Below the pieces are notes generated by a model. It had not been told where the DNA came from. It did not search any database and saw only the letters and a list, made by a program, of their open reading frames with translations. The translations under genes were made by a program, and so were the position numbers. Of a stretch of DNA of 34,239 nt, positions 13,817 to 34,202 are shown one piece after another. The first letter of the stretch is position 1; each line of letters opens with the position of its first letter. The DNA comes from Aurantimonas marina (lineage in GTDB: Bacteria > Pseudomonadota > Alphaproteobacteria > Rhizobiales > Rhizobiaceae): assembly GCF_017183135.1 (NCBI RefSeq), contig NZ_JADDXW010000023.1:1-34239 (forward strand), read 5' to 3'.

Positions 13817-13890
13817 AATCTAGTGCGAGCAATTTTCTCAATGTCTCCAGGGTGAGGGCCTTCCTCCCGTTGCCGTTGGCCGGAGAATTG

Positions 13891-13931
13891 ATCCGCAGTA
13901 AGCGGATTTCGGCTGACTATTCTTGTCAGCC
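13891..13931 (-). terminator. Two hairpins at the 3' end of the RND operon
   Basis: GGCTGAC/GTCAGCC (13911-13931, 7 bp, 7-base loop) overlaps the stop codon of the RND gene. ATCCGC/GCGGAT (13891-13907, 6 bp, 5-base loop) follows it in the minus direction. Together they look like the end of the operon message, though neither has a strong T-run. Confidence 0.45.
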
Positions 13932-16900
13932 GGCCAGGGTCTCCGGCACCAGATCGTTAGAGGGTTCGGCTGCGGGGCCCTTGGGTGCCTTCACACGGAA
14001 AACAACAAGGTAAAGCGCCGGTATGAAGAGGAGTGTGATTAGGGTTCCCGCGATGATGCCGCCCATCATCGCGTAGGCCATCGGCCCCCAGAAAACCTCG
14101 CGCGAGATCGGGATCAGCGCCAGACTTGCCGCCGCAGCCGTGAGCAGGATCGGGCGTGCCCGCATTGTGCTGGCCTCGAACACCGCATTCCAGGGAGGAA
14201 CGCCTTCCTCGCGCAAGAACTCGATCTGATGGACGAGGATGATCGAGTTGCGGATGAGAATGCCGACGAGCGCCAGAACGCCCAGGATCGCGACGAAGCC
14301 CAGCGGTGCCCCTGACGGAATTAAGGCTGCGACGACGCCGATCAGGCCCAGCGGTGCCGCGCTGACGACAATGAGCGTCGCCCTGAAGCTCTGCATCTGG
14401 ATCATGATCAGCGTCAGCATGGCGACGAGCATCAACGGCACGACGGCGGCGATCGGTCCCTGGCTTTGGGCGCTCGATTCCACCGCACCGCCGATTTCTA
14501 CCGTGTATCCGGCAGGCAGGCTCTCCTGGAACGCGGCGATCTTTCCGGCGAGGTCCGCGACGATCGTCGCGGGTTGTGCCCGCCCGAGGATCGCCGCGCT
14601 GACCGTGACCGTCGGGATGCGCGAGCGCGAGTAGAGGATCGGGTCTTCGTAGCTGTAGCCATAACTGACGAGGCTCGCGAGCGGGATTGCGGCACCTTCG
14701 GAATTCGTCAGCTGCAGGTTCTCGATCGCCTCGATGGAGTCGCGGTCCGACTGGCGGCCGCGCGCCACTACGTCGACCAGATAGATGCCGTCCCGGACCT
14801 CCGTGATCGTCGAACCGTCGAGGATGAGGTTCAGTGTCGACGCGATCTGCTGTGATGTGACGCCCAGCTGGCGCGCCTTGTCCTGCAGGATTTCCACCTG
14901 CAGCACCCGAGCCGGCTCGTTCCAGTCCATGACGATCGATCGCAGACGGGGATCGCCCGCCATGACAGCCGCAAGCTCTCGTCCGCCGGCTCGCACCACC
15001 TCGATATCCGGACCGCCGATGCGGTACTGCACCGGGCGGCCGACCGGTGGTCCGAGCTCGAGATTCTTCACATAAACGTCGATGCCGACGAGGTTTTCGC
15101 GGGCGAATGTCTGGATCTTGTCGCGGACCCGCTCGCGCGCCGCGAGATCCTTGTTGACGATGACGACCTGGCCGAAGAACGGGTTCGATGGCTGGATATC
15201 GTAGGCAAGGATGAAGCGCTCGGCCGAGCGGCCGACATAGGACGAGAAATGGTCGATGTCGTCGTCGCCGACCAGCGTCGCCTCGAGCTTGTCCATCTCC
15301 GCTTTGGTCTCGGCGATGGTCGCGTTTCGCCGCAGCATGAAGTCGACCACGAGTTCCGGCCGGTCGGACGTCGGAAAGAACTGCTGCTGGACGAAGCGCA
15401 TCGAATAGATCGAGCCGGCAAAGAGCGCGACCGTGATCAGGATCGTGATCCAGCGCCAGCGCATCGCGCCCCGCAGGATGCGGCTGAAGGCCCGCCGGGC
15501 AAGACCGGGCTTTGCGTCGTGCTTGTGCATCGACTTGGGCAGCAGCAGCACGCCGATCAGCGGCGTGAACAACACGGCGACGACCCAGGACAGAAGCAGA
15601 GCCAGGGCAATGACGACGAACAGCGAGAAAGTGTACTCGCCGGCATTGGAATTGTTGAAGCCGATCGGCAGGAAACCGGCAACCGTGACGAGCGTTCCCG
15701 ACAGCATCGGAAAGGCGATCGAGGTCCATGCGAAGCTCGCCGCCTTTTCCCTCGTCTCGCCCATCTCCAGACGGGATACCATCGTCTCGATCGCGATCAT
15801 CGCGTCGTCCACCAGAAGGCCGAGAGCGATGATCAGCGCGCCGAGCGAAATCCGCTGCAGCGTCAGGCCGGCATATTCCATGCCGATAAAGGTCATGGCG
15901 AGGACCAGCGGGATCGACAAGGTGACGACCAACCCGGCGCGAAAGCCGAGGCTCACGAAGCTGACGACAAGGACGATGATCACCGCTTCGAGCAGTGCCT
16001 GGGTGAAGCCACCGACGGATTCTTCCACCACAGCCGACTGATCAGCGACGATGTGTACGCCGATGCCGACAGGCAGTTCGGAGACGATGCGCGCCATCTC
16101 CTCTTTCAGGTTTTCGCCGAAGTCGACGATGTTGCCGCCCTTTCGCAGGCCGATGGCAAGGCCGATCGCCGGCTCGCCATTATACCGGAAGAGCGCCGAG
16201 GGCGGGTCCTGGTAGGCCCGCTTGATCGTCGCGACGTCGCTGAGGCGGAAAAAGCGATCGTTGACGCGAAAATTGACCGCAGCCAGACTGTTTTCGGAGG
16301 CGTATTGGCCCGATACACGCACGAAGATGCGCTCCGGCCCGGACTGCACGATACCGGATGGCGCGATCGCGTTCTGGGCTTTCAGCGTATCGATGATCGA
16401 CTGCTCGTCGATGCCGAGCCCCGCTATCTTGCGCAGCGAAAACTCGAGGAAAATCCGTTCGTCCTGCGCGCCGACGAGTTCCACCTTGCCGGCATCCGGC
16501 AGCTGCAGGACCTTTGTGCGCACGTCGTCGACATAATCGCGCAACTGGCGTGGCGTGAAGCCATCGGCGGTGAAGGCATAGATGTTGCCGAAAACGTCGC
16601 CGAACTGGTCGTTGAAACCGAAGCCGTGAAACTCGGCGGGGAACTCACCGCGAATGTCGGCCATCATGTGGCGGACGCGGGTCCAGATGCTGGTGATCTG
16701 ACCGGCCTTCGTTGTCGGAAGGAGGTTGACGAAGATGACCGTCTGACCGGGCGTGGTGATCGACCGGGTATAGTCGAGGGAGTCCAGTTCCTGGAGCTTC
16801 TTCTCCATCCGGTCGGTGACCTGCTCGGTCATCTCCTCGACGGTCGCACCGGGCATGACGCCCGAAACGACCATCGTCTTGATGGTGAAGGGCGGATCCT

Positions 16901-17015
16901 CCTCGCGGCCGAGATTGAGATAGGAGAGCGCACCGACGAGCATCGCGATGATCATCAGGAACCAGACGAACGAGCGGTGGTGAAGCGCCCAGTCGGAGAG
17001 ATTGAAGCCTTTCAC
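13926..17015 (-). CDS. RND efflux transporter permease, TriC-like
   Basis: This 1029-residue inner-membrane proton-driven pump of the HAE-RND class exports drugs, solvents or biocides. It has the standard 2 x (1+5) helix plan with two large periplasmic loops. The proton-relay pair DD is at residues 403-404 in GLLVDDAMIAIETM. The N-terminus (about 1-35) has the first TM helix, and GREEDPPFTIKTMVV follows. The length is normal for the family. It overlaps the upstream adaptor gene by four bases. Two different adaptors in front of one pump is the layout of TriABC of Pseudomonas aeruginosa (triclosan), and the sequence style fits that subfamily. No outer-membrane channel is encoded here, so a chromosomal TolC/OpmH-type partner is expected. 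The substrate is not readable. Confidence 0.93.
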   Translation of the reverse strand: MKGFNLSDWALHHRSFVWFLMIIAMLVGALSYLNLGREEDPPFTIKTMVVSGVMPGATVEEMTEQVTDRMEKKLQELDSLDYTRSITTPGQTVIFVNLLPTTKAGQITSIWTRVRHMMADIRGEFPAEFHGFGFNDQFGDVFGNIYAFTADGFTPRQLRDYVDDVRTKVLQLPDAGKVELVGAQDERIFLEFSLRKIAGLGIDEQSIIDTLKAQNAIAPSGIVQSGPERIFVRVSGQYASENSLAAVNFRVNDRFFRLSDVATIKRAYQDPPSALFRYNGEPAIGLAIGLRKGGNIVDFGENLKEEMARIVSELPVGIGVHIVADQSAVVEESVGGFTQALLEAVIIVLVVSFVSLGFRAGLVVTLSIPLVLAMTFIGMEYAGLTLQRISLGALIIALGLLVDDAMIAIETMVSRLEMGETREKAASFAWTSIAFPMLSGTLVTVAGFLPIGFNNSNAGEYTFSLFVVIALALLLSWVVAVLFTPLIGVLLLPKSMHKHDAKPGLARRAFSRILRGAMRWRWITILITVALFAGSIYSMRFVQQQFFPTSDRPELVVDFMLRRNATIAETKAEMDKLEATLVGDDDIDHFSSYVGRSAERFILAYDIQPSNPFFGQVVIVNKDLAARERVRDKIQTFARENLVGIDVYVKNLELGPPVGRPVQYRIGGPDIEVVRAGGRELAAVMAGDPRLRSIVMDWNEPARVLQVEILQDKARQLGVTSQQIASTLNLILDGSTITEVRDGIYLVDVVARGRQSDRDSIEAIENLQLTNSEGAAIPLASLVSYGYSYEDPILYSRSRIPTVTVSAAILGRAQPATIVADLAGKIAAFQESLPAGYTVEIGGAVESSAQSQGPIAAVVPLMLVAMLTLIMIQMQSFRATLIVVSAAPLGLIGVVAALIPSGAPLGFVAILGVLALVGILIRNSIILVHQIEFLREEGVPPWNAVFEASTMRARPILLTAAAASLALIPISREVFWGPMAYAMMGGIIAGTLITLLFIPALYLVVFRVKAPKGPAAEPSNDLVPETLAG

Positions 17016-18115
17016 GATTGTCTTTCGCCTTCCGCGATGTCCGTCAGCGAGATCGCTTGCCCGTCCGCAAGGCTGTGGACGCCGGCGACGACCACGCGCT
17101 CGTCGGGTTTCAGTCCGGCTTCGATCTGCACCGTGCCACCGGGCGCGTCGCTCACCGTCACAGCGCGCTTCGATACCGTCATCGCCGCCTCGTCCACGAC
17201 CCAGATCGATGCCTTGCCATTCTCTTCCAAGATGGCGCTCTTCGGTAGGATCACCGATGCCGGCTGCCCTGCCTTTTCTTGTGGGATCGCTGTGATCAAC
17301 GCCCCGATGCGAAAGGCGGGCGGGGGATCGGCGAGCGTGATACGCACCCGATTGGTGCGGGTCAGGGCCTCGGCCTGGGGCGCAATCTCGCGGATCTTTC
17401 CCTCGACGCTGAGATCCGGCTCGATCTGCAGGACGACGCGGAACGGGTCGCCGGCGGCCAGATCGAACTGCTGGGCCGCCGGCACGTCCACGACAGCCTC
17501 GCGCTCGCCCGTCTGGGCGAGCTTGAAGACCGCCGCGCCGGCCGACACGACTTGGCCGACATCCGCCTGGCGGTCCGTGATAACCCCGTCATAGGGCGCC
17601 GTCAGGACGGCGAAACTCAAGGCATTCTCGGCTTTGTCGAGCTGTGCCCGTGCGCTCGCGAGCTCGGCAGTGGCAATCTGACGGCTTTGTTCGGCGACAT
17701 CGAGATCAGATTGCGATACGGTGTTCTCAGTGTACAGGGTCCGCATACGCTGGGCACTCGCGTCAGCCGTGCGAGCCTGAATCCGGGCATTGGCCAACTG
17801 GGCCCTGGCAGAGCGCACGTCGGCGGCGAGCGTTTCGGCGTCGATCGCCGCGAGCGGCTGCCCCTTCTCGACCTGATCGCCAACGTCGACATCTCGCGAA
17901 ACAAGTCGGCCGAGGGTGCGAAACGCCAGGGTCGTTTCGAAGCGCGGCGCGATTCTGCCGCTGAGCCCGTGTTCCGCGGTTACGCGCCGGGCGGTGACCA
18001 TGGTAAGAACCGGGCGCGGCGGCAACGGCGCGGCCTGCGATCCGTTGTCCTGGCTGCAACCCGTCACAAGAGGCGCCGCAAGGAGCAGTGCCGTGAAGCC
18101 GAATGCTCTTTTCAC
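17012..18115 (-). CDS. RND periplasmic adaptor lipoprotein (second adaptor)
   Basis: This 367-residue membrane fusion protein links the pump to the outer-membrane channel. The lipoprotein signal ends in the lipobox LVTGC with Cys20. Residues 45-95 form the first half of the lipoyl domain, followed by a coiled-coil hairpin of about 60 residues rich in Ala, Gln and Glu (RSARAQLANARIQARTADA on). The second lipoyl half contains APYDGVITDRQADVGQVV, and beta-barrel and membrane-proximal domains follow. It overlaps its neighbours on both sides by 4 bases (ATGA), so the three genes are tightly coupled. Confidence 0.93.
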   Translation of the reverse strand: MKRAFGFTALLLAAPLVTGCSQDNGSQAAPLPPRPVLTMVTARRVTAEHGLSGRIAPRFETTLAFRTLGRLVSRDVDVGDQVEKGQPLAAIDAETLAADVRSARAQLANARIQARTADASAQRMRTLYTENTVSQSDLDVAEQSRQIATAELASARAQLDKAENALSFAVLTAPYDGVITDRQADVGQVVSAGAAVFKLAQTGEREAVVDVPAAQQFDLAAGDPFRVVLQIEPDLSVEGKIREIAPQAEALTRTNRVRITLADPPPAFRIGALITAIPQEKAGQPASVILPKSAILEENGKASIWVVDEAAMTVSKRAVTVSDAPGGTVQIEAGLKPDERVVVAGVHSLADGQAISLTDIAEGERQS

Positions 18116-19224
18116 GAACCGGCCTCTTCATCCATTGCGACGAGATCAGGGATCTGTCCTGGCCGCACGAGCTGGGATCCTTCCGTAATGACCCGGTCCC
18201 CGGCCACAACGCCTTCCTCGACGACGATCCCGCCGCTTTGGTAGGAACCGATCGTCACCGGAGTCAGCCTGGCGGCGTCACTCTCTTTGTCGACGGTCCA
18301 GACCGCCGCTTTGCCGCGATCCGCCATGAGCGCCGTCCAGGGCAAGACGATTGCCTCTTCCTGGGCTTCCCCGACATCCGTGCCGACCACGGCCGAGCCG
18401 AGCGTCATCTGCGGCGGAACCGTGTCGAGGCCGACCTTGACCTTGACGGTGCCGGTCGTCGAGTCGATCAGCGGCGAGACCTCGCGCATCGTTCCCACGG
18501 TTTTCACCGAGGGATCGCCGACGAGCGCGACCGTGATCGAGTGTGACTTCCGGGCACCGATAAGCAGCTGTTCCTGAATGTCGAAGACCGCGTCGCGATC
18601 GCCGTTCTCGGCAAACCCAAAGGCCGTCTGGGCCGCACTGACCACCTGGCCGGGATTGACGCTGCGGCTGGTAATGACACCGTTGGCGTCGGCCCTCAGA
18701 ACGGTCTCTTCCAGGTTTGTCCTCGCCGTTTCCAGGTCGGCTTTTGCCATGTCGACGGCACTCGTTGCCGATGACAGTGCCCTTTGCGCACTGTCGAAAT
18801 TCCCGCGGGTGGTGAAGCCCTTGCCGAACAGTTCCTTCTGCCGCTGAAACGCCGACGACGCCTGAGTCAGTTGCGCGTTGGCCGCATCTACCGCCGCTTC
18901 GGCAGCCGCTACACTGGCTTGCTGCTCGGTCGGATCGAGCTTTGCCAGCACCTCTCCCTCTGTCACCTTCGCCCCGACGTCGACGGCGACTTCCGTCACC
19001 CGGCCGGCTGTCTTGAAGGAATAGGTCGCGGTATGGCGCGCCGTGATCTCGCCCGTCAATGTCGTGGTCTGGTTGATGGTTTCTGGCTCGATAGTGACGA
19101 AACCGATTGGCTCGGGTGGCCTTTCCACCTTGTTTTCAGGCGAACAGGCGGTGAGCGAGAATGCAACCGTCGCAACGAGAAGCACGCGAACCGGGCTCGA
19201 CCGAGCGTCCATTCTGCCGATCAT
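18112..19224 (-). CDS. RND periplasmic adaptor lipoprotein (first adaptor)
   Basis: This is the first adaptor of the operon, about 370 residues, similar in plan to the next one. It has a lipobox FSLTAC, a lipoyl half (ATYSFKTAGRVTEVAVDVGAKV), a coiled-coil hairpin with SVAAAEAAVDAANAQLTQA, a second lipoyl half with LRADANGVITSRSVNPGQVV, and beta-barrel domains. The start is uncertain: ATG at 19224 (GAGG just upstream), ATG at 19212 or TTG at 19239. I chose 19224 as a compromise between the ribosome-binding site and signal peptide length. It is divergent from the MarR gene, and the operator candidate at 19251-19263 lies directly upstream. Confidence 0.88.
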   Translation of the reverse strand: MIGRMDARSSPVRVLLVATVAFSLTACSPENKVERPPEPIGFVTIEPETINQTTTLTGEITARHTATYSFKTAGRVTEVAVDVGAKVTEGEVLAKLDPTEQQASVAAAEAAVDAANAQLTQASSAFQRQKELFGKGFTTRGNFDSAQRALSSATSAVDMAKADLETARTNLEETVLRADANGVITSRSVNPGQVVSAAQTAFGFAENGDRDAVFDIQEQLLIGARKSHSITVALVGDPSVKTVGTMREVSPLIDSTTGTVKVKVGLDTVPPQMTLGSAVVGTDVGEAQEEAIVLPWTALMADRGKAAVWTVDKESDAARLTPVTIGSYQSGGIVVEEGVVAGDRVITEGSQLVRPGQIPDLVAMDEEAGS

Positions 19225-19250
19225 CGACCTCGCACCCAATTGCTTGCTTG

Positions 19251-19263
19251 TAAAGTTGCTTTA
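19251..19263. promoter_or_regulatory. Candidate MarR operator between the efflux operon and its regulator
   Basis: The inverted repeat TAAAG-TTG-CTTTA lies in the short divergent promoter region, 27 bp upstream of the adaptor start and 33 bp before the MarR ATG. MarR-type proteins bind short AT-rich palindromes in such places and usually repress both directions. Binding is inferred. Confidence 0.5.
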
Positions 19264-19296
19264 TGATAGAGTTAAGTGAAAAGAAGGTACGCGTCA

Positions 19297-19764
19297 ATGG
19301 CAGGCGGCAACCACGAGGAAGCTGACGAAAGGGTGGGGAAGGCGACCTCGGACGAGATCGGACGTCTGTTCAAGCTGGTCATGCGAACCGCGATCGACTT
19401 CGACAAGGATCTTGCCGCCCGGCACGACCTTGCGCTCACCGATCTTGGATGTCTTGGGTTCCTGGAGAACAGCAAGGCGCCCGTCACCGGGAAGATGATC
19501 GCCGAACATGTGGCGCTCTCGACCGGGGCGACGACAGCCCTTCTCGACCGGCTGGAGCGTGTCGGCCTCGTCGAGCGGCGCCCCAATCCGACGGACAGGC
19601 GCGGGATCGTGATCGCACTCGTGGAGGAAAACGCCCGGTCGATCCTTGAGGAGCATCGCCATATGCGCGACCGGCTCTGGGCAGCGATCAACAGTCTTAC
19701 GCCAACGGAAGCCGAGACGGTCGCGAAGTTTCTGCGAACGCTGCTCGAGCGTATCGACGGCTGA
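19297..19764 (+). CDS. MarR family transcriptional regulator
   Basis: This 155-residue regulator probably represses the divergent efflux operon. The winged helix spans about residues 45-115: LTDLGCLGFLENS, then KMIAEHVALSTGATTALLDRLERVGLVERRPNPTDRRG with the wing DRRG, flanked by the dimerisation helices. I chose the ATG at 19297 rather than the in-frame GTG at 19276 because AAGAAGG lies 7 bases upstream of it. The inducer is not readable; phenolic compounds are common for MarR. Confidence 0.88.
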   Translation: MAGGNHEEADERVGKATSDEIGRLFKLVMRTAIDFDKDLAARHDLALTDLGCLGFLENSKAPVTGKMIAEHVALSTGATTALLDRLERVGLVERRPNPTDRRGIVIALVEENARSILEEHRHMRDRLWAAINSLTPTEAETVAKFLRTLLERIDG

Positions 19765-20154
19765 ACTCGCTGACTCCGCGGTGGCGACTACCTCGAACCT
19801 TCGGTCGGGGCACGGAACCGCCGTGGGAAGTTCGCGCCGCGGCCTGAATCTACGCGCCGAAGCAGCCGTAGACCAGCTCTGTAAGGTCTCGAATGCGGTC
19901 CGCCGTGCGAGCACGACGAGGCGCCAGGAGGCCCGTCGCCGAGGGTGGCCGCTCATCCGATCGAGACGACTCCGCGGCTCGATTGAAAGTAGAGCACCAA
20001 ACCGGAATTGTTCGCTTGCGACCCGCCGCCACGAGTGTGAATCGCGATTTTATCTGCCAACCAATGATCAAAGATTAGTAAATCAAAGATTGACTTTGGT
20101 TGCGCAACCTGGAAGTTTTTGCGGCGTTGCCTGGCGTGATGTCCGCGCCGGTGG
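19765..20154. other. 390 bp without a gene, ending in an AT-rich repeat cluster
   Basis: No frame here resembles a known protein. The last 100 bp are AT-rich compared with the surroundings and hold the direct and inverted repeats described separately. This is the convergent gap between the marR gene and nnrS. Confidence 0.4.
20059..20101. repeat. Cluster of direct and inverted repeats downstream of nnrS
   Basis: ATCAAAGATT occurs twice (20067-20076 and 20082-20091) with a period of 15 bases. An inverted pair CAAAG/CTTTG (20084-20098) overlaps the second copy. AACCAA (20059-20064) and TTGGTT (20096-20101) frame the whole. It could be a protein-binding array or the fold at the end of the nnr message. 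Confidence 0.45.
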
Positions 20155-21330
20155 TCATGCCGGACCGGTCCGTGTCCGACCGGGCTTCGCCGCCATCAGC
20201 ATTGGCACGAAAACGACCGCGAAACCAAGCAGCGCAACGCTCCAGCCGGCGCCCGCAAACGTCAGAAGCGGCAGGGCGAATTCCGGCGCAAGCGCCGCGG
20301 CGATACGCGCGACGGCGGCGGTCAGCATGGCTGCGTAGAGAATAAGCGTTGCGGGCGAGGCCTTGAGCGCTCGCCCGGAATGGCCAAGGCTCGCCCGTGT
20401 CATCATCGCCAGCGTCATCGTGCCGACCGCGCCCACCGTCCAGCTGTGGGTCACGGCGCTCGCCGTCACGGTTTCCGGCCAGGCGACGCTGGCGCCGAGC
20501 AGCAGGAATCCCGCTGGAACGAACCCATAGGCGATGTGCATGATGGCGAGGATCGGCTCGCGCCAGGTCGGCGCGCCGCGCCACCTTAGAAGGCGGATGA
20601 CGAGCAGCGCGGCCGCCAGAAGCGCCAGGGCGGCGGTGATGGGTGCCGCCGGGGCGACGACCCAGGCCATCAGCGCGACCATTGTCGTGCCGATGGCCAG
20701 GGCATCCGGTCGGCCGAACGGCAAGGGTAGGGGCTTTTCGCGCTTCACCAACCAGTTGCGCGTGAAGCTGGGCGTGACCCGTCCGCCGATCAGTGTGATG
20801 AGCGCGATCAGCGCGGCGATCGAAAGGCGGAGCGCGAGGTCGGTCGGTGCGCCGCTCAGAGCCTGGACATGAAACAGGATGTTCCCGGCGAGCAGCGCCG
20901 CCACCAGCACCAGCACGCGCAGGTTCCGCCAGTTGCTGCCGGCGATGATCTCGCGGGCGGCGAAACCGATGACCGCGACCAGAAACAGCACATCGATCAC
21001 GGCGGCGATTGCCAGACCAATCAGGTCGGCCTCGAGCATGGCGAGGCGCCCGAGCACCCAGATCACGACCAGAAACAGGAGCGGTGCTCCCTTGACCGGA
21101 AAGCGCCCGGTCCAGTTAGGGATGGCGGTGAAAAGAAAGCCGCAGATCACGGCTGCGGCGTAGCCGAAGATCAGCTCGTGCGCGTGCCAGCCGAGATCGC
21201 CATAGGCGTTTGAAAGGTGGATCGAGCCGCCATAGGCGAGGAGCCAGAGCGGCACAGCCGCGCCGCCCCATAGGGACGCCAGCAGGAAGAACGGGCGGAA
21301 ACCGTAACTGAGAAGCGGCGGCGTCGACAT
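20155..21330 (-). CDS. nnrS: NnrS family protein
   Basis: NnrS (391 aa) is a polytopic membrane protein described as containing heme and copper, linked to nitric oxide metabolism and to relief of nitrosative stress. The family signature is at the start: LLSYGFRPFFLLASLWGG, and GDLGWHAHELIFGYAAAVICGFLFTAIPNWTGR with the conserved histidines. About 12 hydrophobic helices fill the rest. The length is normal. The gene starts 13 bp after the nnrU stop and belongs to the NsrR-flanked operon. NnrS is also known from cytochrome cbb3 or denitrification clusters; no nitrite or NO reductase is in this window. Confidence 0.93.
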   Translation of the reverse strand: MSTPPLLSYGFRPFFLLASLWGGAAVPLWLLAYGGSIHLSNAYGDLGWHAHELIFGYAAAVICGFLFTAIPNWTGRFPVKGAPLLFLVVIWVLGRLAMLEADLIGLAIAAVIDVLFLVAVIGFAAREIIAGSNWRNLRVLVLVAALLAGNILFHVQALSGAPTDLALRLSIAALIALITLIGGRVTPSFTRNWLVKREKPLPLPFGRPDALAIGTTMVALMAWVVAPAAPITAALALLAAALLVIRLLRWRGAPTWREPILAIMHIAYGFVPAGFLLLGASVAWPETVTASAVTHSWTVGAVGTMTLAMMTRASLGHSGRALKASPATLILYAAMLTAAVARIAAALAPEFALPLLTFAGAGWSVALLGFAVVFVPMLMAAKPGRTRTGPA

Positions 21331-21343
21331 GGGGTGGCTTTCG

Positions 21344-22063
21344 TCAAGATCTCAGGTAAATCAACGGGTCGACGCCGAAGAGCCAGAGATGGCCGCCGGC
21401 GAGAAACCAGACATAGAACGCCAGCCCGACGAGGATTCCGACAAGCGTCTGCCTGTCGACGGCAAGGCGTGCCCGGCCGGCCAGTATCGCGGCAAAGGGC
21501 AGGATCGACGTATGCGCCGCCAAGGCGGTCCACCGATCGAGTCCGAGCCGGGATTTCGCCCGCTTGTCGGCGAGGCCAAAGCCGGCGGCGGCGTAGAGCG
21601 CGAGGCCGCCGAACAACGCGATCGACACCACATCGCCATTCACCGCGACATGCGAAAGCGCCCAGAGCACGAAGCCCCATAGCACCGGATGCCGGGTCAC
21701 GGCGACGATGCCCGGTCGGGCCGGATCGAACCCGCGGTCCCGCCACGACACCGATAGGGGATTCGATCGCAACAGCCCGGCGACGATGAGAGTGAGGGCA
21801 AGTGGCATGACCACCAGCGGGACCGCAACCAGTTCGGGCGTCAGCGGCCATAGTGAGAGCGTCGGAGCGTTGCGCGCCGCCGCAATCAGCCAGACGAGAA
21901 GAAGAATGGAGATCAGGGAATAGAGGGCCAGATAGGCCCCGCGTCCGAGCGTATGGACGACGAAGCCCCGAACCTGCGGCGCCGCAGGTACGACATGGGC
22001 GGTCATGAACAGGACATAGGCGAGGGCGAACTGAACCACGGCCGACAGCTTAGAGCAGGACAT
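21344..22063 (-). CDS. nnrU: NnrU family membrane protein
   Basis: This 239-residue membrane protein has about six hydrophobic helices and belongs to the NnrU family, seen with denitrification and NO-response genes. Family-like stretches are VRGFVVHTLGRGAYLALYSL, FDPARPGIVAVTRHPVLWGFVLWALSH (the histidine pair near HP and SH is conserved in this isoprenylcysteine-methyltransferase-like fold) and WTALAAHTSILPF. I chose the ATG at 22063, which overlaps the upstream small gene by 14 bases; the longer frame upstream is a shadow of that gene. The biochemical role is unknown. Confidence 0.88.
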   Translation of the reverse strand: MSCSKLSAVVQFALAYVLFMTAHVVPAAPQVRGFVVHTLGRGAYLALYSLISILLLVWLIAAARNAPTLSLWPLTPELVAVPLVVMPLALTLIVAGLLRSNPLSVSWRDRGFDPARPGIVAVTRHPVLWGFVLWALSHVAVNGDVVSIALFGGLALYAAAGFGLADKRAKSRLGLDRWTALAAHTSILPFAAILAGRARLAVDRQTLVGILVGLAFYVWFLAGGHLWLFGVDPLIYLRS

Positions 22064-22217
22064 ACATCGCCAAGGCCAGACTGACCGCCCCCCAGACACA
22101 CATATTGATAAAGGACCGGAACAGGCCTCCATCCTCCTCAATGCTGATGCCGCATTTGCGGAGCATGAGATTGCCAGGAAACAGAAACACGTCCAGCACG
22201 AGGTGCAGAAATCTCAT
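22050..22217 (-). CDS. Small membrane protein (55 aa) at the head of the nnr operon
   Basis: This short gene starts at the ATG at 22217 with GAGGACG a few bases upstream, and ends with TAA at 22050-22052. The protein opens with MRFLHLVLDVFLFPGNLMLR, continues KCGISIEEDGG, and ends in a hydrophobic helix with MCVWGAVSLALAMYVLL. So two hydrophobic segments flank a short polar part with one cysteine. The 14-base overlap with nnrU and the good ribosome-binding site say it is a real, coupled gene. I do not recognise the family. Its place suggests a role in handling nitric oxide or in assembling NnrU/NnrS; this is inference. Confidence 0.75.
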   Translation of the reverse strand: MRFLHLVLDVFLFPGNLMLRKCGISIEEDGGLFRSFINMCVWGAVSLALAMYVLL

Positions 22218-22440: not shown

Positions 22441-22917
22441 GTGCGCCTGACCCTTTATACGGACTACGCCTTGCGGCTGTTGATGTATCTGGCGCTGAAG
22501 CCGGACGCGCTGGCGACCATCCAGGAGGTCGCCGAGGCCTATGGAATCTCGCGCAACCATCTGATGAAGATCGCTCAGGAGCTTGGCCGCGGCGGTTTCG
22601 TCGAAACCGTCAGGGGGCGGGGTGGTGGCCTCCGGCTCAAGGCCGATCCCGCTGACATCGTCGTCGGCGATGTGGTTCGGGCGACGGAGGACGATTTCCG
22701 CATTGTCGAGTGCTTCGATCCGACCCGCAATCGCTGCGTTATCACCGGTCCGTGCCGGTTGCGGGGCGCGCTCGCCGAGGCGCTCGGCGCCTATCTCGCG
22801 GTCCTCGATCGCTTCACCCTCGCCGACCTCGTAATCGCGCGCACGCCGCTTCAGGACATCCTCGGACTTCCGGCTGGCCCGGGCGTGGCGGCGCTCGCGA
22901 ACGCTGGGCCGGCTTAG
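22441..22917 (+). CDS. nsrR: Rrf2 family NO-sensing regulator NsrR
   Basis: NsrR (158 aa) is an Fe-S cluster repressor that releases DNA when nitric oxide attacks the cluster. The winged helix lies at residues 1-68 (MRLTLYTDYALRLLMYLA, then EVAEAYGISRNHLMKIAQEL, then GRGGGLRL). Three cysteines at 91, 99 and 105 (ECFDPTRNRCVITGPCRL) form the cluster site, and Asp8, the fourth ligand in the Streptomyces protein, is present. The GTG start has GGGAGA nearby. It is divergent from the nnr operon, with a matching operator between them. Rrf2 relatives such as IscR have a different cysteine spacing and context. Confidence 0.92.
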   Translation: MRLTLYTDYALRLLMYLALKPDALATIQEVAEAYGISRNHLMKIAQELGRGGFVETVRGRGGGLRLKADPADIVVGDVVRATEDDFRIVECFDPTRNRCVITGPCRLRGALAEALGAYLAVLDRFTLADLVIARTPLQDILGLPAGPGVAALANAGPA

Positions 22918-22930
22918 CGGGCCGCATCGC

Positions 22931-23299
22931 TCATTTGGTGCCGCTGGCTTGGCGCTTTTCCAGATAAGCCTTTAGTGCAATGGCGTTGTTGTGGGCCGTG
23001 TCCTTCGCCGCGTAGACGAGCGTCACGCGGCCCTTGGCGAGACGATCACGCAGCGCTTCAACCGCCTCGGGGTTGGCGTCGAGTTCCTTGGTATAGCGCT
23101 GCGTAAATTCGTCCCATCTGGCCGCATCGTGGCCGAACCAGTCCCGCAAGGCGTCGCTCGGTGCCACCTCCTTGGCCCACTCTTCGAGCTTCAAGGCATC
23201 CTTGGAGACTCCGCGCGGCCACAGCCGATCGACCAAGATTCGCTGGCCGTCCGACTGGCCCGGCGCATCATAGGCCCGCCGCAGCCAGAGACTGGTCAT
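22931..23299 (-). CDS. DUF488 family protein
   Basis: This 122-residue soluble protein belongs to the DUF488 (YeaO-like) family. Hallmarks are RILVDRLWPRGVSK at residues 20-33, EEWAKEVAPSDALRDWFGHD, and LVYAAKDTAHNNAIALKAYL near the end. The function is not established. Its start overlaps the stop of the cyclo-ligase gene by 4 bases, so they form an operon. The gene is convergent with nsrR. Confidence 0.88.
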   Translation of the reverse strand: MTSLWLRRAYDAPGQSDGQRILVDRLWPRGVSKDALKLEEWAKEVAPSDALRDWFGHDAARWDEFTQRYTKELDANPEAVEALRDRLAKGRVTLVYAAKDTAHNNAIALKAYLEKRQASGTK

Positions 23300-23982
23300 C
23301 CACGCGTCTCGGGCCGGGTGATCCGGCCTTTTCCGGTGACGATCACGTCCATCGGGATGTCGTGGGGCTGCGGATAGATCGTCGCGATCTGCATCGTCGG
23401 CAGCCCGACGCCGATCACCAGCGGTTTTCGCGCTTGCGCCGCCAGGGTGCGGTCATAGAAGCCGCCGCCATAGCCGAGGCGATAGCACTGCGGGTCGAAG
23501 CCGACCACCGGCGATAGCACTACGTCGGGCGTGAGTTCCTCGCCATCGGCGGGGATCGGGATGTTCCATACGCCGCGTTCCATCCGCCCGTCGGGCGTCC
23601 ACGCGCGGAAGACCAGCGGCTGCGCCTTGGCCACCACGACGGGCAGGGCAACGGAGACGCCGCGTTCATTCAGGGAACGCATCCAGGGCAAAAGGTTGAG
23701 TTCGCCGCGGATCGGCCAATAGAGGCTGACGACCAGCCCGCGCCGCACATCGACCAGTCTGTCGAGCTCGGCGGCGACCTCGTCTGCGATGCGGCCGCGC
23801 TCATCGACGGCGGTCGCCAGGCGCATCGCGATCAGCCGCTCGCGTTCAGTCTTGCGCCAGCGGGCGACATCGGCGGCTGCCGTCGCGTCTCCTGCGAGGA
23901 AGCCGTCTTCCGTCTCACGCAACTCATGCGAAAAACAGGGCGGCGAGGCGAATTCCCCCGGCTGATCGTTGTCTTCGGTCAT
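23296..23982 (-). CDS. 5-formyltetrahydrofolate cyclo-ligase
   Basis: This 228-residue enzyme converts 5-formyltetrahydrofolate to 5,10-methenyltetrahydrofolate with ATP, which recycles folate. Family marks are the N-terminal LYWPIRGELNLLPW, then LPVVVAKAQPLVFRAW, and the ATP-binding loop RLGYGGGFYDRTL. The N-terminal 40 residues (MTEDNDQPGEFASPPCFSHEL) are an extension common in alphaproteobacteria. I chose the ATG at 23982, which has AAGGAAGG six bases upstream, over ATGs at 23988 and further upstream. The gene is coupled to DUF488. Confidence 0.9.
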   Translation of the reverse strand: MTEDNDQPGEFASPPCFSHELRETEDGFLAGDATAAADVARWRKTERERLIAMRLATAVDERGRIADEVAAELDRLVDVRRGLVVSLYWPIRGELNLLPWMRSLNERGVSVALPVVVAKAQPLVFRAWTPDGRMERGVWNIPIPADGEELTPDVVLSPVVGFDPQCYRLGYGGGFYDRTLAAQARKPLVIGVGLPTMQIATIYPQPHDIPMDVIVTGKGRITRPETRG

Positions 23983-24033
23983 GTCCATCCTTCCTTGCGG
24001 ATCAGCTTCTGTCGGCGGTTGTGCGGGATGCAC

Positions 24034-24453
24034 TTATCGGACTGCCTTGTAGGCCTGCCAGGTGGCGTGACCGAGAAGCGGAAACACGACGATCAGCGCA
24101 AGCAGGCCGGTCACGGCGGATAACAGAAACAGGGCGACGACGATCGCACCCCAGGCGAGCATCACCGGCAGATTGTTCCAGACGAGTGCCATGCTGGTTC
24201 CCATTGCGGTAAAGGCGTCGCTCTTCTCGTCCAGCAGCATCGGGACCGAGAATGCGCTGATCGCGAAGGAGAAGGCGGCGAAGAGACCGCCGACGATGAT
24301 GCCGGCAAGCAGCATCGCCCATCCGGTCGACAGCACCGCGAAAGTGGCGGTGGCGGCAAGGAAGATCAGGACCGCCCGCGGCACCGGCGTATTCAGTTCC
24401 TTGATGCCGTTCCGCTCGTGTCCGGTGGTCTCGCGCCCGGTCACCGGATTCGC
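24034..24453 (-). pseudogene. Chimera: CcoP N-terminal fragment fused to DUF2189 C-terminal half
   Basis: An open frame from the GTG at 24444 gives 136 residues. Its first 23 or so residues (VTGRETTGHERNGIKELNTPVPR) match the N-terminus of CcoP, the diheme subunit of cytochrome cbb3 oxidase (family form VTGxETTGHEWDGIKELNxPxPRWW). From residue 25 on the sequence is the C-terminal half of a DUF2189 membrane protein, with FAISAFSVPMLLDEK and a tail LGHATWQAYKAVR; full members are about twice as long. No heme motif remains. The codons just before the GTG (P, N, A) continue in frame to the ccoQ stop. This looks like the product of a deletion. It might still be translated as a 3-helix protein. Confidence 0.8.
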
Positions 24454-24555
24454 CTATGTCCATGGCGTGTCGTCCTTATCGAGGATGTCCTTGGCCTTGT
24501 CGAACCGCTTCTTACTGGAGGGCCAGAAGACGTAGGCGAGAACGCCGATCGACAA
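24454..24555 (-). pseudogene. CcoQ C-terminal fragment
   Basis: The minus-strand frame ending at the TAG at 24454-24456 reads LSIGVLAYVFWPSSKKRF, then DKAKDILDKDDTPWT. This is the C-terminal half of CcoQ/FixQ, the small cbb3 oxidase subunit: end of the TM helix, WPSxKK, and the terminal DDTPW. The expected first helix part is absent: upstream codons (VLQEATLGREQIDSR) show no hydrophobic helix, and a stop lies before them. It sits directly before the CcoP fragment in the native order. Confidence 0.78.
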
Positions 24556-24878
24556 ACGCGAGTCGATCTGTTCACGCCCGAGGGTCGCTTCCTGCAACAC
24601 TGCCCCGAATACCCGTTACACCTCGAGCCGAACCACGCGCCCGGGCGGCTGCCGTCCGGCGCTCGCCTGTCCGCAATTGATCGCACGATTTCGGAGCGAC
24701 GAATCGTGCGTGCAGATTGTACGGAATCTTTCTGGAGAAGTGGAGTCGTGGGCCTTTGAGACGAAGGTTCGCGGCGCTCGCCCTGGCGTATGCCCTGACC
24801 GGAATGGTGGACCCGGTGGGAGTCCCTCGGACGATCGACCGATCAAGCCGGTGCGGAAACAGTAGCTTAGGAGAAAAT
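24556..24878. other. Stretch without a gene between the ccoQ fragment and tRNA-Gln
   Basis: I see no ccoN or ccoO remains and no other recognisable protein. The one clear structure is the 9-bp inverted repeat at 24682-24710. This is presumably debris at the breakpoint of the cbb3 locus deletion. Confidence 0.4.
24682..24710. repeat. 9-bp inverted repeat
   Basis: CGCACGATT (24682-24690) and AATCGTGCG (24702-24710) are perfect inverse copies around 11 bases. It could be a hairpin or a binding site. It has no T-run and no gene start nearby. Confidence 0.5.
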
Positions 24879-24952
24879 TGGCTGGGGAACCTGGATTCGA
24901 ACCAGGACTAACGGAGTCAGAGTCCGTGGGTCTACCGTTAACCTATTCCCCA
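24879..24952 (-). tRNA. tRNA-Gln (anticodon CTG)
   Basis: The minus strand folds into a complete cloverleaf of 74 bases, with the CCA encoded. The acceptor stem is TGGGGAA against TTCCCCA, followed by G and CCA. The anticodon stem is ACGGA/TCCGT with loop CTCTGAC, giving anticodon CTG, which reads CAG. The T stem is CCTGG/CCAGG with loop TTCGAAT. A T-rich stretch (ATTTTCTCC) follows the 3' end. The promoter candidate at 24990-25018 reads into it. Confidence 0.95.
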
Positions 24953-24989
24953 CCGTATCGGCCGCCTGTCGGCGCCGCGGATGCAAGCT

Positions 24990-25018
24990 CATATAGACGC
25001 AGGCGGGGCGACTGTGAA
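24990..25018 (-). promoter_or_regulatory. Promoter of tRNA-Gln
   Basis: On the minus strand TTCACA (25013-25018) and TATATG (24990-24995) are exactly 17 bases apart. The -35 matches 5 of 6 and the -10 matches 4 of 6 consensus bases. It lies about 37 bases upstream of the mature tRNA 5' end. Confidence 0.6.
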
Positions 25019-33540: not shown

Positions 33541-33822
33541 ATGGGCAATCAGTGGATCCTGCAGGATGCCAAGAACAAATTCTCGGCAGTGGTCGAGGCG
33601 GCCTTGAACGGCCGGCCGCAGCGCGTGACACGACGGGGCGAGGCAGCAGTTGTCGTCGTGTCCGCGAAGGAGTTCGATGCGATGAAGGACCAGGAGATAG
33701 AGCGCAATCGCGTCTTTGTGAGGCAGTTGCTTTAGGCCCCCGAAAGCCTTGGGCCTGGCCAGGAGCTCATCGACGAAAATAATCGCGCGATGCTCGTTCC
33801 GCGTGACGTTGAGTTCGACTAG
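33541..33822 (+). pseudogene. Phd/YefM family antitoxin with a premature stop
   Basis: The intact part (33541-33735, 64 aa) has the Phd/YefM DNA-binding fold: MGNQWILQDAKNKFSAVVEA, then RPQRVTRRGEAAVVVVSAKEFDAM. A TAG at 33733-33735 ends it early. Reading on in the same frame gives APESLGPGQELIDENNRAM, then LVPRDVEFD and a second TAG at 33820-33822, 6 bp before the toxin start. The C-terminus of such antitoxins wraps and blocks the toxin, so the short form could still bind DNA but probably not neutralise. The neighbouring toxin is also broken, which fits loss of selection on the pair. It could be a real short antitoxin, but the in-frame tail argues against it. Confidence 0.72.
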
Positions 33823-33828
33823 CGCCGG

Positions 33829-34202
33829 ATGTATTTACTGGACACAATGGTGTTGTCTGAATTGGAAGACGCCACCCGACCACGCCGTGCCGGCTTGGCT
33901 GGCAAGGAACGCTGACAGCATGCAATGCTTCAGCGTTGTGACCGTCGGCGAACTGGAGCGGGGCATCGCGTTACTACACCAACAAAAGCGCAGCCGTGCG
34001 GATCGTCTCTCCATCTGGTTCGCAGGTCTCAGCGAGGAATTTTCGATCGGACGCTACCGATAACCTATCGAATCGCATTCGCCACGCCGCCGATCTATTG
34101 ATCGCCGCGACCGCGCTGGAACAGGATCTGACGATCGTCACGCGCAACATTCGTCACTTCGCGCCAACTGGTGCAAAGCTTTTCAATCCCTATGAAGGCT
34201 GA
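33829..34202 (+). pseudogene. VapC-like PIN domain toxin, frameshifted and internally deleted
   Basis: The pieces of a PIN-domain ribonuclease appear in order in three frames. The first, from the ATG at 33829, is MYLLDTMVLSEL (D5 of the active site). The second is KTPPDHAVPAWLARN, then FSVVTVGELERGIALL with the second acid, and ends at a stop (34061-34063) after GLSEEFSIGRYR. The third is HAADLLIAATALEQDLTIV, then TRNIRHFAPTGAKLFNPYEG, with stop at 34200-34202. Between the second and third parts about 20-25 residues of the family are missing. No single frame gives a functional toxin. The gene follows the antitoxin in the normal order. Confidence 0.8.

Follow-up and report, generated by a model that had tools for sequence, protein, structure and literature searches.

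A stretch of Aurantimonas marina DNA raises the question of whether joined pieces of respiratory genes amount to a new protein or to the debris of an old operon. We analysed a contig of 34,239 nucleotides (the window), which is the whole of contig C16 in a 4.03-Mb draft genome of 66 contigs. At positions 24034-24567 the minus strand carries the tail of ccoQ, the head of ccoP and the tail of a DUF2189 gene. Comparison with related sequences indicates that this region is very probably a degenerate pseudogene, the remnant of a ccoNOQP-small ORF-DUF2189 operon that formerly lay upstream of the cyclo-ligase/Rrf2/NnrU/NnrS block. It is a well-resolved yet ordinary pseudogene scar. The features are listed below, where C10 is another contig of the same genome, G006 is a second Aurantimonas genome and L088 is a locus of uncultured Aurantimonas 3-561.

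24879..24952, minus strand: tRNA-Gln(CTG), an integration site in the genus
24563..24859, minus strand: integrase head of DUF6538 type, decayed and joined to the ccoQ tail; DNA and tblastn matches to copies in G006
24454..24555, minus strand: ccoQ tail, 33 codons (24555-24457) and TAG (24456-24454); 3 bp shorter than in C10 and G006
24331..24463, minus strand: ccoP head, from the true ATG (24463) to the deletion joint; a 5-bp deletion just after the ATG shifts the native frame
24394..24421, no strand: interval in which L088-like sequence switches to C10-like sequence, from the comparison of informative sites
24329..24331, no strand: deletion joint of ccoP and DUF2189; 1,473 bp absent relative to C10:60971-62443
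24034..24329, minus strand: DUF2189 tail, about the last 97 of 264 residues (37%); 99.3% identity to C10
24034..24444, minus strand: fused open frame of 136 codons, internal GTG start (24444), stop at 24034; judged a pseudogene frame
23296..24033, minus strand: 5-formyltetrahydrofolate cyclo-ligase family gene, also the downstream neighbour of DUF2189 in G006 and L088
22931..23299, minus strand: DUF488 gene
22441..22917, plus strand: Rrf2-family regulator
21344..22141, minus strand: NnrU
20155..21330, minus strand: NnrS

Profile searches identified two of the three parts. Residues 4-37 of the 136-residue frame matched Pfam FixP_N (E 5.8e-9, 36 bits, cut-off 24.9) over profile positions 2-35 of 48 only, and residues 35-72 matched DUF2189 at positions 89-126 of 126 (E 3e-8, 34.3 bits, cut-off 26.2). 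These two matches are not chance. The NCBIfam ccoP profile reached 24.5 bits, below its cut-off of 179.95, and no cytochrome c domain, of which the CcoP family has two, was matched in the frame. The DUF2189 domain is likewise incomplete (38 of 126 positions); the C10 protein covers positions 1-126. The ccoQ tail alone matched no Pfam or NCBIfam profile, FixQ included, and was recognized by its DNA, which aligns with the intact ccoQ of C10, the protein of which matches FixQ (E 2e-17). The order of ccoQ before ccoP is native, and so is the overlap of the ccoQ stop with the ccoP ATG. The first-pass annotation, made from the letters alone, had read the last 33 residues of CcoQ in native order before a CcoP head that runs unbroken into DUF2189, and this anatomy is confirmed. 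Its "C-terminal half" of DUF2189 was an overestimate, as the coordinates above show.

The site lacks ccoN and ccoO altogether, along with the start of ccoQ, the bulk of ccoP, the small ORF and the front part of DUF2189. The scar is thus truncated at both ends, has lost 1,473 bp internally and carries a ccoP frameshift, the 5-bp loss lying directly after the ATG relative to both C10 and G006. By eye hardly any bases are shared at the ccoP/DUF2189 joint, and a repeat-driven deletion is therefore not claimed. A terminator scan returned five terminator-like sites, some of them overlapping, against 0.8 +/- 0.8 in shuffles.

The identity of the lost operon follows from relatives. Both G006 and L088 carry ccoNOQP, the small ORF, DUF2189 and the cyclo-ligase gene, and then Rrf2, NnrU and NnrS as in the window; G006 has extra ORFs within its cco-to-NnrS block, and L088 is without the DUF488 stretch. 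As an intact operon lies at the matching place in these two, we read the scar as its remnant, and the earlier suggestion of a deletion scar of a cbb3 locus, together with the proposed search for an intact ccoNOQP near DUF2189 and the cyclo-ligase gene, was borne out. In A. marianensis (G004) the cyclo-ligase gene has no adjoining cco, and its cco adjoins nar; a stretch of its contig C70 is identical over 11,041 bp to contig 30 of A. marianensis LRZ36. Among the eight Aurantimonas genomes searched, that of the window included, close cyclo-ligase matches (86-100%) occurred in the window's genome, G004 and G006, and the best in the other five were 33-34%. Close NarH matches (98-100%) were found in the same three genomes, with weak, partial matches only in the other five. 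A second, distant cyclo-ligase relative (37%) lies at C1:70828-71358 of the window's genome, and since such a distant match was present in all eight genomes, the copy in the window seems to be accessory and linked to the nnr/cco block. At the far end of the window (33541-34063) there is a Phd/YefM-type antitoxin gene (E 5e-13); the ORF next to it had no Pfam match and is PIN-like by eye.

Could the fused frame nevertheless be a working chimeric membrane protein, started from the GTG at 24444? The frame is open over 136 codons, and in a Kyte-Doolittle plot its hydrophobic stretches run on across the joint. By eye a weak AGG lies 7-11 bases upstream of the GTG, and the survival of such a frame counts against the pseudogene reading. 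However, the 5-bp deletion puts the true ATG out of frame, so that the 136 residues can start solely at the internal GTG, and the promoter region and upstream genes are gone. A scan of 24000-24960 found no sigma-70 promoter-like site, which is weak evidence. The product would be without the haem-binding cytochrome c domains and would keep only 38 of the 126 DUF2189 positions. For comparison we used 87 loci, namely the best 80 of 228 relatives found in genome_contigs and seven further genome loci. The ccoP head and DUF2189 tail occurred together in 79 of the best 80 of 228, at 1,457-1,636 nt from each other, and no fusion of the two was seen in the 86 testable loci (L114 was left out, as it begins too near the match to tell). 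When the whole frame was checked as a possible normal conserved protein, the outcome was negative: in a search of 60 relatives and the genome itself, a match over residues 1-136 was obtained for the copy in the window only. The fused frame is therefore probably not a working protein, judging by its sequence, and the new chimeric membrane protein that had been considered possible is very improbable.

The small ORF deleted from the window separates ccoP from DUF2189 in 85 of the 87 loci (L155 had no match and L114 was untestable); examples are L040 10093-10275 in G006 and L036 13506-13688, minus strand, in C10. It encodes about 60-78 residues with one likely membrane helix, followed by a conserved ANAHLVYVA...SQPxCVxH...AAKSxC pattern. 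Three members matched no Pfam or NCBIfam family above cut-off, and that of L040 gave no convincing solved-structure match. It could be a small, as yet undescribed partner of cbb3 oxidases of this type. Related genes are also found on plasmids. On Paracoccus sediminicola plasmid p3 (L187) ccoNOQP-DUF2189 adjoins a recombinase and IS256. On Afipia carboxidovorans plasmid pHCG3 (L188) a P-type ATPase gene and ccoS come after the small ORF and DUF2189, an IS3 transposase lies upstream, and the 8.3 kb examined include no annotated ccoNOQP. A plasmid source for the scar was considered and rejected: 99 plasmid records matched (5 at 80-90% identity, 94 at 60-80%), none over 80% of the query, and none was close enough to name a source.

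The search for further copies in the same genome was also positive. Contig C10 carries ccoN, ccoO, ccoQ, ccoP, the small ORF and DUF2189. This operon faces a nar operon, in which NarG and NarI were assigned by Pfam and narK, narH and narJ by eye. The C10 ccoN is incomplete, covering profile positions 248-470 of 474, because the contig stops within it. C23 holds a further cbb3 cluster, and the intact CcoP proteins of both contigs have cytochrome c domains. With these two clusters the genome has therefore retained cbb3 oxidase genes despite the loss at the window site. The lost high-affinity oxidase of the first-pass annotation thus holds for the site and fails for the genome. A cbb3 oxidase would be made from C23 and, if the C10 ccoN is whole, from C10; the scar most likely has no function of its own. 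On its downstream side the C10 operon is flanked by another scar (L036 12163-12667), in which a moeA tail is joined to the tail of a DUF2478 gene beside the nar operon, with about 865 bp absent in comparison to the intact pair on C13 (L183 3786-5578). Since this flank too consists of joined gene tails, the genome has two scars of like anatomy.

The scar resembles C10 unevenly along its length. Positions 24033-24328 are 99.3% identical to C10 (2 differences in 295), whereas positions 24330-24554 are 91.0% identical (94.2% without gaps), with 13 of 225 aligned bases differing and 8 gap positions in the ccoQ/ccoP part. The likeness to C10 stops at the DUF2189 stop. The near identity of the DUF2189 tail also counts against the pseudogene reading, as decay since the last exchange has been short and there is little direct sign of lost constraint. 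The window was then compared with C10, G006 and L088 at the informative sites, which were 16 only. In 24421-24554 the window agreed with L088 against C10 and G006 at five sites and with C10 against G006 and L088 at none, whereas in 24034-24420 no site was L088-like and 11 were C10-like, 4 of them in 24330-24420 and 7 in 24034-24329 (5:0 versus 0:11, Fisher p 2.3e-4). By these sites the scar is a mosaic, in which 24421-24554 groups with L088 and 24034-24420 with C10, and this grouping suggests that recombination has shuffled these cco copies. A simple recent duplication of C10 followed by deletion does not account for the full history: upstream of 24,421 the scar has five informative sites in common with L088 and none with C10. 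Nor does extra decay alone account for the difference between 91% and 99% identity, as it leaves the L088-shared states unexplained.

The C10 operon also has a mixed background. Its nar genes are 95.8% identical to those of G004, but the cco genes beside them are 74.7% identical to the G004 cco and 91.3% identical to the cyclo-ligase-linked cco of G006. With nar nearly the same in C10 and G004 and the cco identity to G004 low, the oxidase operon beside nar differs between them. This contrast, and the C10-likeness of the scar only downstream of about 24,420, are consistent with ectopic gene conversion between two cbb3 operons of the genome, in which the NO-response-linked operon would have replaced the resident oxidase beside nar; we put this forward tentatively, as a reading that is less likely than not. 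The affinity of C10 itself changes along the operon, being nearer to L088 in ccoN and ccoO and nearer to G006 beyond, and so it is also possible that the exchange took place in C10, by import from another lineage.

On its other side the scar meets the remains of an integrase. Positions 24563-24859 have 81% and 75% DNA identity to the integrase heads of G006, and tblastn gave 61% over 69 aa at 24662-24859 (E 6.3e-24); the G006 integrase copy matches DUF6538 (E 1.6e-15). The joint with the ccoQ tail falls within about 24,556-24,563. The tRNA gene had been described as abutting the scar and as a usual site for rearrangement. Between tRNA-Gln and the ccoQ tail there are 323 bp, which hold the integrase remnant, and it is the second part of the description that fits. 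DUF6538 integrase-type ORFs adjoin tRNA-Gln in G001 and G003, and on G006 C195 such an ORF stands beside a repeat of the tRNA-Gln end at the contig start, about 10 kb from the tRNA. Two of these three ORFs score just below the Pfam cut-off for DUF6538, and only that of G006 matches an integrase catalytic domain; G002 has a similar ORF at tRNA-Gln by eye. The repeat of the tRNA-Gln 3' end, present on G006 C195, was not found in 24000-25000 of the window, the sole span covered. The G006 C195 element itself (L073 1-12046) spans about 12 kb between tRNA-Gln and the repeat of its end, and carries the integrase, Vsr, a C-5 cytosine methylase and a resolvase.

In the history that we propose, cco copies would have exchanged sequence by homologous recombination, and the copy at the window site would have become redundant and then decayed. 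A deletion, visible in the alignment to C10, removed the ccoP body, the small ORF and the DUF2189 front; ccoN, ccoO and the ccoQ head are absent, and the cut end is joined to the decayed integrase head beside tRNA-Gln. Losses of 3 and 5 bp are observed as well, and the second of them takes the true ccoP ATG out of register.

The operon may instead have been broken on arrival, if a block of NnrS-NnrU-Rrf2-DUF488-cyclo-ligase-DUF2189'-ccoP'-ccoQ' moved to the tRNA-Gln/integrase site and cco was cut then. This differs from decay in place solely in the timing of the upstream cut. The direct joining of the ccoQ tail to the integrase remnant fits such a move, as do the neighbours of the nnr block in G006, G004 and L088, which are unlike those in the window. 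In G006, moreover, the window's efflux block (13887-19781, 90.4%) and the integrase head lie 3.6 kb apart on one contig with no cco/nnr block between them, but G006 could equally have lost the block from that place. A single cut on arrival does not account for the internal deletion or for the losses of 3 and 5 bp, which are events apart from it. We regard arrival in broken form as a real possibility that stops short of being probable, and the upstream cut of cco may date from the block move. That the joint is an artefact of assembly is highly unlikely. The draft is in 66 contigs, holds two near-identical DUF2189 tails and has C10 ending inside ccoN, which speaks for an artefact, but the ccoQ/ccoP part departs from C10 at too many bases and gaps to have been built of C10 reads, and the adjacency of DUF2189 and the cyclo-ligase gene is found in two relatives.

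Taken as a decayed operon, the locus indicates that the NO-response block formerly adjoined a low-oxygen oxidase operon in the window's lineage, and that what looks like the loss of an oxidase is a displacement, with a further copy kept at another genomic site. If the reading by ectopic conversion were true, denitrifiers could swap low-oxygen oxidases between respiratory modules. Annotating the fused frame as a protein of the CcoP or DUF2189 family would be misleading. More broadly, the locus is of modest value, since duplication, exchange and decay of operons near tRNA genes are common.

The closest known system is the ccoNOQP-small ORF-DUF2189 operon of Alphaproteobacteria (e.g. L088 and L087 of A. 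marianensis LRZ36), which shares its genes and their order with the window remnant; there the genes are separate and whole, whereas the window copies are truncated and joined. In Brucella ovis a decayed cbb3 operon with a ccoO frameshift pseudogene is reported (PMC2677664). As described there, a gene of the cco operon was lost through a small deletion, as in the window, but a single frameshift struck an otherwise conserved operon, whereas the window has large deletions and its genome keeps further cbb3 clusters. A ccoP gene fusion in Neisseria reportedly gave a working oxidase subunit an additional haem domain (PMC2924362). In both cases ccoP is joined to another gene; the Neisseria fusion was a functional gain, whereas in the window both partners are without most of their length.
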